DNA of 64,000 bases from assembly GCA_025462865.1 (NCBI GenBank), contig JAOAPI010000015.1:1-64000 (forward strand), given 5' to 3'. The stretch's first letter is position 1; each line of letters begins with the position of its first letter. Under the pieces are notes generated by a model that worked only from the letters and a program-made list of their open reading frames with translations, was not told the DNA's origin and did not search any database. Both the position numbers and the translations under genes were made by a program. Of this stretch, positions 5,889 to 40,932 are shown in pieces. The stretch is from Candidatus Sulfotelmatobacter sp. (GTDB lineage Bacteria > Acidobacteriota > Terriglobia > Terriglobales > Acidobacteriaceae).

Positions 5889-7583
<1,695 letters not shown>

Positions 7584-28292: not shown

Positions 28293-28337
28293 GGTGGCGC
28301 AGATATTGCTGGCAGACAGAAGGATGCCCTCCCGACA

Positions 28338-28355
28338 GCCGGCACGGACGCCGGC
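28338..28355. repeat. Short GCCGGC palindrome at the 3' end of kdsD
   Basis: GCCGGC-ACGGAC-GCCGGC, a 6-bp self-complementary arm either side of a 6-nt loop, lying immediately after the kdsD stop codon. There is no T-run, so it is not a classic terminator; it may protect the transcript 3' end or be a dispersed palindrome. Confidence 0.45.
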
Positions 28356-28356
28356 G

Positions 28357-29484
28357 CTACACTAGTTCCGTGCTCCACAGATCGTGCAGATGCACAATGC
28401 CTTCCAGCTTCCCGGTTCCATCCACAACCATCAGCGAGGTAATCTTCTTCTCTTCCATGAGGGCGAGGGCAGTCGCTGCAAATTCTCCCGATGAAATCGT
28501 CATGGGATTTTTCGTCATGGCCTCGCCAGCCGACAGATCGAGGACATCTTTTCCGCGCTTCTCGAGCAGACGCCGCAAGTCTCCATCACTGATGATGCCA
28601 ACAAGCGTTTCGCCTTCCACCACCGCCGCCACGCCAAGCTTCTTTCGCGACATCTCATAAATCACATCTGGCATCTTCGTCTGAGGAGTGACACGCGGCA
28701 GCGCATCGCCGGAATGCATCAGCGAGTCCACCCGCGCCAACCGCTTTCCCAGCTTTCCCCCGGGATGCAAATTGGCGAAATCTTCTTCTTTGAACCCACG
28801 TTTCTCGCTGAGCGTCACGGCTATTGCATCTCCGAGCGCCAGCATCGTTGTGGTGGAAGCCGTCGGCGCCAGCCCCAAGGAACAAGCTTCCTCCGCAATC
28901 GAACAATCCAGAGCTATGTCCGCCGCCGTCGCGAGTGTAGAGCCTGGTCGTGTGGAGCGGGCGCCCTCGCCCGCGGCCTTTGACTTAGCCCTGGCTCTCA
29001 ATTCAACTCGATCTGCCGACAATTCTGCGGAAGACTTCCCTGTGCCCCCGGACCCTTTGCTACTGGCAGCCTTCACGGGCGAGGGCGCCCGCGCCACACT
29101 ACCAATCTCATCTCCAGTCATCGCAATCAAGGGCACTCGCAAACGCTTTATGGTTGCCAAGAGTGCCAGAATCTCTTCGGTCTCGCCGGAAGCTGAAAGC
29201 GCCAAAACTACATCCCCGCGAACCACCATTCCCAAGTCTCCGTGCAGCGCCTCCACCGGATGCAGGTACAACGCCGGAGTCCCCGTAGAACTGAGCGTCG
29301 CGGCAATCTTGCGCGCAATCAGACCGCTCTTTCCCATTCCCGTGACCACCACGCGGCCGGCGCAGGAAAACATTAACTCCACAGCCTGCTGAAACGACTC
29401 CGCCATCGGCCCGGCAATGCGGTCCGCCAGAGCACGAAGTGCCTCAGCTTCAATGCGCACCACGTTCTCGCCAATATTTTTCAT
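28357..29484 (-). CDS. kdsD: Arabinose 5-phosphate isomerase with in-frame insertion
   Basis: KpsF/GutQ-type sugar-phosphate isomerase interconverting ribulose 5-phosphate and arabinose 5-phosphate, the first step of Kdo synthesis. It has an N-terminal SIS domain (VVVTGMGKSG, SASGETEE) and two C-terminal CBS domains. I chose the ATG at 29482-29484 (MKNIGENVVRIEAEALRAL), giving 375 residues. The family is about 325. The excess is a hydrophilic stretch at residues 129-179 encoded by a 150-bp palindrome-bounded element (see repeat at 28950-29099) between MTGDEIG and STLATAADIAL, where normal proteins have only a short loop. The rest is intact (LAPTASTT, LHPGGKLGKRL), so the enzyme may still function if the loop is tolerated. 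Confidence 0.9.
   Translation of the reverse strand: MKNIGENVVRIEAEALRALADRIAGPMAESFQQAVELMFSCAGRVVVTGMGKSGLIARKIAATLSSTGTPALYLHPVEALHGDLGMVVRGDVVLALSASGETEEILALLATIKRLRVPLIAMTGDEIGSVARAPSPVKAASSKGSGGTGKSSAELSADRVELRARAKSKAAGEGARSTRPGSTLATAADIALDCSIAEEACSLGLAPTASTTTMLALGDAIAVTLSEKRGFKEEDFANLHPGGKLGKRLARVDSLMHSGDALPRVTPQTKMPDVIYEMSRKKLGVAAVVEGETLVGIISDGDLRRLLEKRGKDVLDLSAGEAMTKNPMTISSGEFAATALALMEEKKITSLMVVDGTGKLEGIVHLHDLWSTELV
28950..29099. repeat. Palindrome-bounded 150-bp element inserted in kdsD
   Basis: The arms 28950-28973 and 29076-29099 are 24-base inverted repeats differing at one position, reading GTGTGG(A/C)GCGGGCGCC then CTCGCCCG. The element is exactly 150 bp, a multiple of three, with no stop in the kdsD frame, so it adds 50 residues in frame. 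The encoded peptide is rich in Ser, Gly, Lys, Ala and Arg. I see no convincing target-site duplication and no gene inside. Size and behaviour suggest a small non-autonomous palindromic element. Confidence 0.8.
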
Positions 29485-29581
29485 TGAATGTAGAGCCGGG
29501 AAAGGAATGGTAGCACGCACCGCCCTGGAACCGGGCTGCGGTAGAACGGGTACGCTAGGCTCGTGCGTCAGACCGGGTCCG

Positions 29582-30778
29582 TTAGAAGTGATCGTCAGTG
29601 CTGACCGCGCTGACCGGCTGCGCTGGCTTTTGCCCGAGCACCGCCAGTCCTTTCGCCTGGATAATCCGGTCCCAAGGCCCGGCCTGCCAATTGTCCCGCA
29701 TCTTCGCGGGATGCCGCCACGGGGGCAGCGCCACCATCAAGTTTTTCGCCGTGGAGTGCAGATAAGGTTCATACATCGATCGCAACTTATTCAACTTCAT
29801 CCGCGCTTCATCCGTACTTCGCAATTTCAAGCCGGCGGCCGCCAGAGTGGTTCGCAATGCCTCGAAATCGGCGTCCGGAAGGCGTTCCGGCGCCTGCGGA
29901 TCGTAGCGTGCATTCACCACCTGCGCCAGATCCACGGCCGCATGGCGCGCCATGGCAAATGTCAGTCTCGCCTGTCCGGGATGAATGTCTTCAATCCCGG
30001 TAATCACCAGCGAAGTCACGTCCAGCATGATCATCAGTGCTCCCAGCCACGACTGATTGCTATGCTGTGAACGAAAAAAACTTAAAACCGGATACGAAAG
30101 ACCGCTTTCCAGCAATTCTCCCGCCCAGCGCTCCCAGTCACGGAGAACTTCGTCGAGAACCAATTGATCGATGCTTGGATCCTCTGACCTCCCGGCCAGC
30201 CGGACCAGCAACTCGCTGGCTGTCGGCGGAGAACCTGCGCGAGCATCAAGCATGGATATTTGAATCTCGCGTCGGGAAAACGAACCGTAGACAACCGGTA
30301 AGTAGCCGATCACCACGCCAAGAAATGCGAAGCCCATCCCGGCTTCGAACACGGAAAGCACGCGGGCCATTGTCGATATCGGCAGAATGTCACCGTAACC
30401 GAGGGTGAAAAATGTCTGCCCGCTGTGGTAGAGGATTCTGGCAAAAGTGATCGGCTCATGCGCCAGCTGTTCATGCCCGCCAATCCCGTATTGCAGCAGT
30501 CCAAAGCCGCAAATCAGTCCCGCAGCCCAGAATGCCAGCAGCATGATCAGAGAGAGAGGCCCGAAGTATCCCAAAAAACTTTGTTGTCGCGCAGGCGTTT
30601 TGATATGAGCAGCGATCCTCTGCCAGGGAATCCAGGTGCGCCGGTAGAACCATGCCGTCAGCCGGAACTGTCTCGTCACACGGCGGGGCAGCACAACGGT
30701 CTCAAATGCATCCAGCAGCACCACACCGATGATGAACAGGCCAGAAACAATTGCTGGAATGTTGAGATGAAGGCTCAT
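29582..30778 (-). CDS. Two-helix potassium channel-like membrane protein
   Basis: 398 residues with an N-terminal pore module (about 1-160): membrane segments around 8-30, 75-95 and 135-155 and a selectivity filter TLGYGD at about 123-128, as in Ion_trans_2 channels. The large C-terminal part (about 170-398) is cytoplasmic and helical (Glu/Arg/Leu-rich, motif-poor), with no RCK or cyclic nucleotide domain that I can recognise. The ATG at 30776-30778 is clear. Potassium selectivity is inferred from the filter. Gating ligand unknown. It has a pore shared with ion-channel families in many soil bacteria. Confidence 0.85.
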   Translation of the reverse strand: MSLHLNIPAIVSGLFIIGVVLLDAFETVVLPRRVTRQFRLTAWFYRRTWIPWQRIAAHIKTPARQQSFLGYFGPLSLIMLLAFWAAGLICGFGLLQYGIGGHEQLAHEPITFARILYHSGQTFFTLGYGDILPISTMARVLSVFEAGMGFAFLGVVIGYLPVVYGSFSRREIQISMLDARAGSPPTASELLVRLAGRSEDPSIDQLVLDEVLRDWERWAGELLESGLSYPVLSFFRSQHSNQSWLGALMIMLDVTSLVITGIEDIHPGQARLTFAMARHAAVDLAQVVNARYDPQAPERLPDADFEALRTTLAAAGLKLRSTDEARMKLNKLRSMYEPYLHSTAKNLMVALPPWRHPAKMRDNWQAGPWDRIIQAKGLAVLGQKPAQPVSAVSTDDHF

Positions 30779-39663: not shown

Positions 39664-40932
39664 TTATCCTCTTCCGACGCCAACGTATTCGAACCCCATG
39701 GCGCGCAGCCGGACGGAATCCAGGAGGTTCTTGGTATCCACGATGAGAGGTTTTTTCAGCAACTGCTTGATACGATCAAAATCGAGCACGCGGAACTCAG
39801 GCCATCCCGTGCCTACGACGAGAGCATCCATTCCTTCGGCCGCGGCATAAGCAGAATCGCAATACCGCACCGAACCATTCAGCCGCATCTTAGCTTCGGA
39901 GAGCGCAACCGGATCATATGCCCGTACCCGCGCGCCTTTGGCGACCAGCGCCTCCGCCAACCGCACCGCGGACGATCCCGCCACCGAATTCGTATTCGGC
40001 TTGAAAGCCAGACCTAGAATTCCTACATCCTTGTTCTCGACCGAATTCAAGGCCAGCGCAATTTTTTCTACCAGGTGATCGGCTAGCGAATGGTTGACGT
40101 CCCGTGCAGCGCTTAACACTTTCAGAGGAAGGCCATTGGACTTAGCCAGCTCAGCCAGCGAATCCATGTCGGACTCGGCAAACACTCCGCCCATGCCGGC
40201 TCCGGGCTGCAGACAGCGCGGAGCGATTTTCTTGTCGAGGCCGAGCGCCAGCGCCAGGCTCACTGCGTCCGCGCCCACGCGCTCGCAGAGAGCCGCAACC
40301 TCGTTGATGAAAGAAATTTTCGTCGCGACAAATGCGGTTGCCGCTTCGCGCACCAACTCGGCCGTCGCCTGGTTGGTCACAATCACCGGCACGCCGCGCA
40401 TCACCAGCGGATGATAGATCTGCTTGAGAGCATGCACCGCTTCGTTCGAGCTCGAACCAAGAATCAGCCGGTCGGGCCAGTTGAAATCTTCTACCGCGCA
40501 GCCGTCAGTAAAAAACATAGGCTGCGAAACAATCGTGGCCTGTAATCCCCCCGCCCTCAAGGATTTCTCCAGCGCCGCTGCCGTCCCAACGGCTACCGGT
40601 GTGACGATCGTCAGAATCGGGGGCTTCGCGGCCAGCCGCGCAATGCGCATCACCACGTCGGTCAGGTTCTCGGCGCCATCTTCCGCCAGAAAAATAACTT
40701 GCGTCTTACGCGCAAAAGATTCGATATCGGTGGAGTACGCCAGGCGTCCTGCTCGCACGTTGCGGCGGATGACCTCTTTCAGGTTCTTCTCGAAAAATGG
40801 AATGTTGCCCTGAGCCATCTCAACCATTCGCGACCGGTCGGGATGACAGCAGGAAACTGGAGTGCCGAAATCCGCCAGGCAGGCCGAAATCACCGTTCCC
40901 AGGTAACCCGAACCGTAGACTCCGATCTGCAT
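39664..40932 (-). CDS. UDP-glucose/GDP-mannose dehydrogenase homologue lacking catalytic residues
   Basis: 422 residues with the full three-domain UGD architecture: NAD-binding GxGYxG (GSGYLG, residues 7-12), the central helix with ATKISFINE (K205 and N210 intact) and a C-terminal domain (GLAFKPNTNSVAGS). The oxidation centre is altered: the usual PEFLREG is PMFFTDG (Glu to M139), and the usual GGSCFPKD is GGVFAESD (catalytic Cys to F251, Lys to S254). It is thus unlikely to oxidise UDP-glucose to the acid by the standard thiohemiacetal route. Otherwise it looks conserved and unbroken. It could bind NAD and a nucleotide sugar for another reaction or a regulatory role. Confidence 0.9.
   Translation of the reverse strand: MQIGVYGSGYLGTVISACLADFGTPVSCCHPDRSRMVEMAQGNIPFFEKNLKEVIRRNVRAGRLAYSTDIESFARKTQVIFLAEDGAENLTDVVMRIARLAAKPPILTIVTPVAVGTAAALEKSLRAGGLQATIVSQPMFFTDGCAVEDFNWPDRLILGSSSNEAVHALKQIYHPLVMRGVPVIVTNQATAELVREAATAFVATKISFINEVAALCERVGADAVSLALALGLDKKIAPRCLQPGAGMGGVFAESDMDSLAELAKSNGLPLKVLSAARDVNHSLADHLVEKIALALNSVENKDVGILGLAFKPNTNSVAGSSAVRLAEALVAKGARVRAYDPVALSEAKMRLNGSVRYCDSAYAAAEGMDALVVGTGWPEFRVLDFDRIKQLLKKPLIVDTKNLLDSVRLRAMGFEYVGVGRG

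Follow-up and report, generated by a model that had tools for sequence, protein, structure and literature searches.

In-frame REP elements in a hypervariable loop of the arabinose-5-phosphate isomerase KdsD in Candidatus Sulfotelmatobacter and its relatives

We analysed a stretch of 64,000 nucleotides (the window) from a genome of Candidatus Sulfotelmatobacter sp., in which an open reading frame on the minus strand (28357-29520) encodes a KdsD/KpsF-type protein of 387 residues that scores 309 bits against TIGR00393 (cut-off, 203.7). Translation probably starts from the ATG at 29484 and not from the GTG at 29520, because the database copy of the protein (P0002) has 375 residues. The gene and the features within it are as follows.

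28357..29520, minus strand: kdsD, a KpsF/GutQ-type arabinose-5-phosphate isomerase with a SIS domain and two CBS domains (open reading frame, Pfam SIS and CBS, NCBIfam TIGR00393)
28945..29115, minus strand: hypervariable KdsD loop, residues 136-192, between TG and STL (loop comparison; alignment to 2xhz)
28950..29099, minus strand: inverted REP pair, REPIN-like, 150 bp, which encodes VARAPSPV...AGEGARST (arm match and frame check)
28950..28973, plus strand: REP arm 1, with the tag GTGTGG at 28950-28955 and the hairpin 18-mer at 28957-28974
28974..29075, no strand: spacer of 102 bp that separates the arms, homologous to the kdsD spacers of close relatives
29076..29099, minus strand: REP arm 2, with the tag GTGTGG at 29099-29094 and subtype C after the tag; the coding strand reads VARAPSP

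Fifty of the 57 residues of the variable loop come from the 150-bp insert, and in a sequence alignment the loop corresponds to the RPES turn of E. coli KdsD (2xhz). Each arm is 24 nt long, with one mismatch between the two and an outer length of 150, and a chance arm match in the window arose in 0 of 100 dinucleotide shuffles. The first-pass annotation of this DNA had described 24-base inverted repeats with a single mismatch that bound exactly 150 bp within kdsD, and the arms at 28950-28973 and 29076-29099 bear this out. It was also correct that the insert is in frame and stop-free, with the coding frame open through all 150 bp, and that it lies between MTGD and STLATAAD of the 387-residue protein. 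Two of the six frames across the insert are open, namely the coding frame, which is the sole open frame on the minus strand, and one plus-strand frame. In arm 1, the coding strand reads AGEGARST, the base after the tag is A (its subtype), and the outermost pair of the stem is A:G and hence unpaired. The complementarity of the arms runs on as a looser pair of 34 nt (88%), and the insert folded as single-stranded RNA reached -81.5 kcal/mol (z = -5.6 against shuffles). An Rfam search of 28300-29700, up to an E value of 1, returned no match.

The arms have the architecture of REPs. An arm of the kdsD type consists of GTGTGG or a near variant, one base, and the hairpin GCGGGCG-CCCT-CGCCCGC; according to the available sections of PMC6006769, a REP has GTAG or GTGG 0-2 nt 5' of its basal stem, which measures 7-20 nt, and the loop of short hairpins has 2-5 nt. 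The genome from which the window derives (6.08 Mb) contains 43 arms at up to 3 mismatches, both kdsD arms counted, and the control searches gave 0 and 1. GT(A/G)G stands at letters 3-6 in 42 of these 43 arms and GTGT in the remaining one, in a search whose pattern favoured such tags. The inner 6 bp of the stem are perfect in 35 of the 43, the next pair is complementary in 38 and the outermost pair in 40, compared with a mean of 17.4 and a maximum of 28 for the outermost pair in 10,000 shuffles. Among those 40, the outermost pair is C:G in 23, A:T in 10, G:C in 6 and T:A in 1. The kdsD pair combines one C-kind arm with one A-kind arm, the latter among the three that are unpaired. Beyond this genome, the arm core occurs in 39 of 41 genomes of the genus, at 0-83 copies each (control, at most 1 per direction). 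Several features that characterize GTAG-class REPs are present, namely the tag, a stem of at least 7 bp with a loop of 2-5 nt, dispersed copies, and copies beside a RAYT gene, and we conclude that the kdsD arms are dispersed GT(A/G)G-tagged REPs with covarying stems. As a separate observation, the window also holds short stretches that match the cores of a different palindrome family, of the GGATGACA type, at 40838-40848 (plus strand) and 6033-6042 (minus strand).

The RAYT model NF047646 has eight matches in the same genome, five of them over the cut-off. Two REP-associated transposase genes contain a REP hairpin in frame.

L038, 1203-1943 (G000:C47): RAYT gene with an in-frame REP hairpin inside (NF047646, 83.1 bits; cut-off, 80)
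L005, 1008-2000 (G000:C119): RAYT-like gene with an in-frame REP hairpin inside (NF047646, 74.3, below the cut-off)

The REP inside the C47 gene is an in-frame variant, and the conserved part of this gene is flanked on both sides by REP pairs with their tags outward, of 139 and 141 bp. REPs in frame within transposase genes are already known from the TnpA-REP genes of subclass 2.4, as described in the available sections of PMC6006769. The kdsD gene resembles these in having a REP in frame, as do the RAYTs of C47 and C119, and differs from them in being unrelated to REP mobility.

Arms also occur within other genes of the genome. A Pfam scan of KdsD and 19 open reading frames over arms (threshold, 200 aa) placed at least 9 of the 43 arms within Pfam-supported frames. 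Besides kdsD, the Pfam-supported frames with an in-frame arm encode UvrD, leucyl-tRNA synthetase (LeuRS), a CHAD/Ppx protein, DnaE, homoserine dehydrogenase, MnmE and ribonucleotide reductase. The REP is read as VARAPSP or a variant in five of these seven, as it is in the start-proximal kdsD arm, and MnmE and the reductase use another frame.

We then compared the KdsD loop across relatives, using 132 kdsD loci (L039-L170), of which 10 were without anchors (frame not judged) and 122 were anchored, with 86 distinct; the 84 analysed loops are these 86 minus L062 (N run) and L124 (regular expression). The frame is kept in all 86 distinct parsed loops, and no stop or frameshift was found in the 84; stops were flagged within the matches of L043, G026, L150 and L093, all outside the 84 loops. 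From TG to STL the loop ranges from 9 to 71 residues, with a median of 33 in the 29 same-genus loops and of 17 in the remaining 55, some of which may also belong to the genus. A recognisable repeat is present in 54 of the 84 loops and in 23 of the 29 from the same genus. Window-type REPs or their stem variants account for 40 loops, family B for 6, C for 4, D for 3 and E for 4, some loops holding several, under rules that were post hoc, since classes B-E are regular expressions written after the loops were viewed. The REP count is 39 of 84 by the 18-mer and 40 with a looser 16-mer added. Hairpins are concentrated in the loop, with 44 in 6,255 loop bases versus 1 in the 85,126 bases that make up the remainder of kdsD and 6 in 275,280 flank bases, which corresponds to 7.0 per kb in loops versus 0.01 per kb in the rest of the gene. 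The family B insert has at least 42, 13, 42 and 40 matches in four genomes, the kdsD copy counted and up to 40 candidates scored in each genome, and in three genomes most of 37, 29 and 14 matches belong to family D; for family C, BLAST gave 5 short matches outside kdsD. Dispersed copies are thus demonstrated for three families, REP, B and D. At the protein level, a permissive REP-peptide pattern is found in 100 of 116 parsed proteins (from a set of 121 near proteins, with the protein from the window counted twice). Among the three genomes examined from f2, a family in the same order (G037, G038 and G040), none has a kdsD insert, because the two halves of the match lie at most 3 nt apart. An alignment with orthologues, proposed when the insert was first noticed, therefore yielded both a loop that varies from 9 to 71 residues and relatives without the segment. 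Nor is the insertion a single event, as the KdsD loops of relatives contain different inserts, often of other repeat families.

Two further observations concern these loops. The tip of the REP hairpin seems to hold a second palindrome, with peptides PFDSRSGQV, LRQAQGKL and PELVEG-like; its DNA was seen in L058 and L128, and it was judged by peptide in L185, P0015, P0040, P0063 and P0121. Genome G001 of the genus has two kdsD genes (G001:C184 and G001:C171), one with a long loop and one without; contamination of this bin is 9%, and one of the two genes may be foreign.

LeuRS and UvrD were chosen as controls, and UvrD proved partly hot. The LeuRS REP is present in 2 of the 17 genus sequences that hold the region (L183 and L185), in a set in which 2 further genus rows are incomplete and 3 of 11 f2 rows are in the wrong frame, and the LeuRS gene of L199 carries a different small insert. 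The UvrD loop hairpin is present in 6 of 16 genus sequences (15 genomes), and in L221 and L223 the hairpin lies elsewhere in the gene. The six loop REPs of UvrD occupy two positions, three REPs at each, that lie some four codons from one another, a spacing as compatible with separate insertions as with an indel. UvrD is thus a milder hot spot and LeuRS is not hot. Among the three genes examined kdsD is extreme, yet it is not the sole gene hit by REPs, because LeuRS and UvrD also carry the hairpin. In the variable loop of UvrD/PcrA (L213-L227 and L241), we also observed that the REPs are 0-3 of 24 nt apart and that synonymous sites of the gene differ by 42-66%.

Taken together, these comparisons lead us to a reading that we consider likely, in which the kdsD element is an inverted, tags-outward REP pair in a permissive loop, placed by a RAYT, retained as an in-frame survivor and subject to REP turnover. 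A RAYT-type HUH transposase would place REPs by way of single-stranded hairpins, as expected from established work on RAYTs and REPs. Insertions into kdsD would survive only when they are in frame and hydrophilic, and the pattern of loops suggests that the turn after the MTG strand tolerates such peptides. A REP that is already resident may attract or exchange further REPs, through insertion into or beside it or through gene conversion with genomic copies, and the loop would turn over continually while its hairpins remain intact.

Renewal of the REPs at kdsD is suggested by conserved arms and switching stems, with repeated insertion at one place as the alternative. Between the gene in the window and that of G014, in which the pair and spacer are common to both, the arms differ at 2 of 48 nt and the spacer at 30 of 102 (Fisher, 2e-4); in the kdsD flanks, 57% of synonymous sites differ. 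When windows of 7 codons were compared, the left arm had 0 of 7 third-position differences versus a mean of 2.89, with 9 of 341 windows as low, and the right arm had 1 of 7, with 38 of 341 windows as low and a spacer window equal to it. One kdsD arm is therefore conserved even at third codon positions and the other less clearly, in a test that compares two genomes and whose three-genome version holds the out-of-frame 5' part of L051. For UvrD, the REP window has 0.33 third-position differences versus 2.89 across 15 species pairs, and 6 of 747 windows are as low.

The stems of the kdsD hairpins also covary. We typed 34 hairpins (27 distinct), in a set in which the row for L064 is about one base out of register, and found that 94.1% of pairs are kept and that both sides have changed in 17 cells. 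Covariation was 0.269 versus 0.161 ± 0.020 when shuffled (0 of 500) and at most 0.178 when slid, and 2 of 5 covariation measures showed no excess over shuffles (pairs with both-side changes, 343 of 500; pair types, 456 of 500). The sister species L097 and L114 have different stem types, GGGCG and GGACA, which are separated by paired changes (on a starred branch of a quick tree). Six genomes of their clade contain 24-84 REPs each (controls, 0), and among the matches listed both stem types occur in G262 and part of G259, with the genome of L114 not among these. On the kdsD tree, a single-gene tree with 30 of 81 inner branches open, neither REP presence (26 changes versus 28.3 for shuffled labels) nor stem type (15 versus 16.6) fits better than shuffled labels, which may reflect fast turnover, too sparse sampling or too weak a tree. 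Covariation and conservation could also stem from independent insertions of ready-made REPs. We put forward only as a tentative possibility that the KdsD loop, and in milder form that of UvrD, is a maintained site of REP exchange, where hairpins would be continually renewed or swapped with genomic REPs and where selection or conversion at the level of DNA would dictate part of the protein. In one other pair of species, L043 and L053, the loop differs at 1 of 132 nt and the flanks at 72 of 675, for which insert exchange or a contig-edge artefact is possible; this pair was left out as evidence because L053 begins its contig near the loop.

Several other readings of the loop deserve consideration. 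The kdsD loop might hold the preferred target sequence of the transposase, so that target choice, and neither tolerance nor a resident REP, accounts for the extreme hairpin enrichment in one loop; the REPs of UvrD, which in six species lie only a few codons apart, are consistent with this. We consider it unlikely, however, because other families are also found in the loop, B and D among them with dispersed copies, and because the residues that flank the repeat vary between kdsD loops.

It is slightly less likely still that the loop has been domesticated, with REP-derived peptides selected for a role in regulation, oligomer contacts or localisation. Between the gene in the window and that of G014, the insert has a dN/dS of 0.68 and a dS of 0.33, below the flank dS of 1.06, and a charged spacer peptide can be recognised in dozens of proteins, which speaks for such a role. 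However, the flanks have a dN/dS of 0.06, and from this contrast selection on the insert peptide appears weak at best; other loop pairs gave insert dN/dS values of 0.38-0.82 or no usable estimate. For 45 related proteins picked by loop length, the two REP peptides show identities of 0.88 and 0.72 and the spacer one of 0.48, as against 0.93-0.94 in the neighbouring core. A single genus contains unrelated loop sequences of 9 to 71 residues, and the insert is absent from the three f2 genomes, which likewise speaks against domestication. The REP-derived peptide probably amounts to ballast that is neutral to mildly costly and has no new function, though it may bring some benefit to the host.

The element might instead belong to a family of protein-coding mobile palindromes of 150 bp, of the RPE type and unrelated to REPs and RAYTs. 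We searched the genome for repeats with the insert plus 10 nt on each side (170 nt) as the query, and scored the best 40 of 47 candidates. At least 42 matches were found, and these, apart from the insert itself, cover the arms plus up to about 25 nt adjoining; in the best 40 of 47 candidates, no other match in the genome extended over query positions 60-117, the middle of the spacer. Because the spacer middle is single in the genome, the kdsD element is an inverted REP pair and not a copy of a repeated 150-bp family. A mobile family of 150 bp was therefore rejected, as the repeats consist of arms and a short adjoining stretch alone. Tags-out pairs at up to 2 mismatches number five in this genome, with lengths of 76-150 bp; this limit was used because a partner search at 5 mismatches (16 of 43) gave mostly noise. 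One of the five, a pair of 127 bp, lies in the mnmE frame (L174, G000:C125). The 150-bp pair in kdsD may have formed through two insertions, and it may never have moved as a unit, given that its two arms belong to different subtypes. The REPIN of Bertels and Rainey, from 2011, is said to be a short element made of two REPs in inverted order. The kdsD pair likewise consists of two inverted REPs with their tags outward; unlike a REPIN, it has a 102-bp spacer whose middle is unrepeated and arms of different subtypes, and no multi-copy whole unit with spacer appeared in the best 40 of 47 candidates.

As described in the available sections of PMC2229807, the RPE of Rickettsia is a palindromic insert of 105-146 bp that is read in frame in conserved genes. 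By that description, the kdsD insert resembles an RPE in its length, its long palindrome and its in-frame position in a conserved protein gene, and differs from it in that no whole unit of 105-146 bp is repeated; the repeat unit is a 24-nt arm with a REP tag, and arms of this kind flank a RAYT. Membership of an RPE-type family is accordingly very improbable. The first-pass annotation, which had drawn this likeness and suggested a mobile palindrome family in Acidobacteriota that inserts in frame, was right about the in-frame reading in conserved genes and about dispersal, in that arms number 43 in this genome and occur in 39 of 41 genus genomes and in seven other open reading frames; the 150-bp family does not stand, the repeating unit being a RAYT-linked REP arm plus at most about 25 nt. 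Its proposed search with the arm for copies of about 150 bp likewise returned 43 arms and five tags-out pairs of 76-150 bp, with a spacer middle that is nowhere repeated (best 40 of 47). Chance, in the form of a GC-rich loop of low complexity, or an artefact of assembly is a hardly credible explanation. In its favour, the loop is rich in GC and hydrophilic, metagenome assemblies make up nearly all of the named sources, a run of N falls at the loop in L062, and L051 is frameshifted upstream; against it, 0 of 100 shuffles gave the arm match and assemblies from several projects agree.

REPs are usually called extragenic. Di Nocera et al. (2013) report REPs in frame within numerous genes, many of which serve DNA synthesis and repair, as well as inverted REP dimers and recB genes of two Xanthomonas species that were struck at about the same site, and they suggest that location in a loop may render REP inserts neutral (available sections of PMC3733652). 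That paper names Acidobacteria once and Koribacter once, the latter in connection with tyrosine transposase genes that go with other repeats. The kdsD arms resemble the GTAG-class REPs and RAYTs described there in their GT(A/G)G tag, short GC hairpin, inverted dimers, nearby RAYT and in-frame copies in conserved genes. They differ from those REPs in that one kdsD loop is struck across many species by several repeat families and in that the DNA sequence of at least one REP arm is conserved within the gene. Searches of the open-licence literature for a case in Acidobacteria or in arabinose-5-phosphate isomerase, and for palindromes within coding sequences, yielded nothing that, judged mostly by title and abstract, describes this loop. 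In-frame REPs and the in-frame palindromes of Rickettsia are thus already known, and what is new is perhaps the loop of one housekeeping enzyme that is hot for many families, with REPs that are perhaps renewed as DNA.

Taken together, these results suggest that one enzyme loop seems to serve as a landing place for mobile DNA, which is tolerated as extra protein. REPs, though nominally extragenic, shape a conserved enzyme at one loop across many related soil bacteria, beside other repeat families, and there are signs that the REP is preserved at the DNA level while it is also translated. The dozens of natural kdsD alleles, with loops of 9-71 residues, therefore offer a ready system for the study of site choice by mobile repeats, their homogenisation and the amount of foreign peptide that an enzyme can bear. 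If the loop is indeed a site of REP exchange, a non-coding repeat would dictate part of a protein, and the loop would be among the fastest-changing stretches between sister species.
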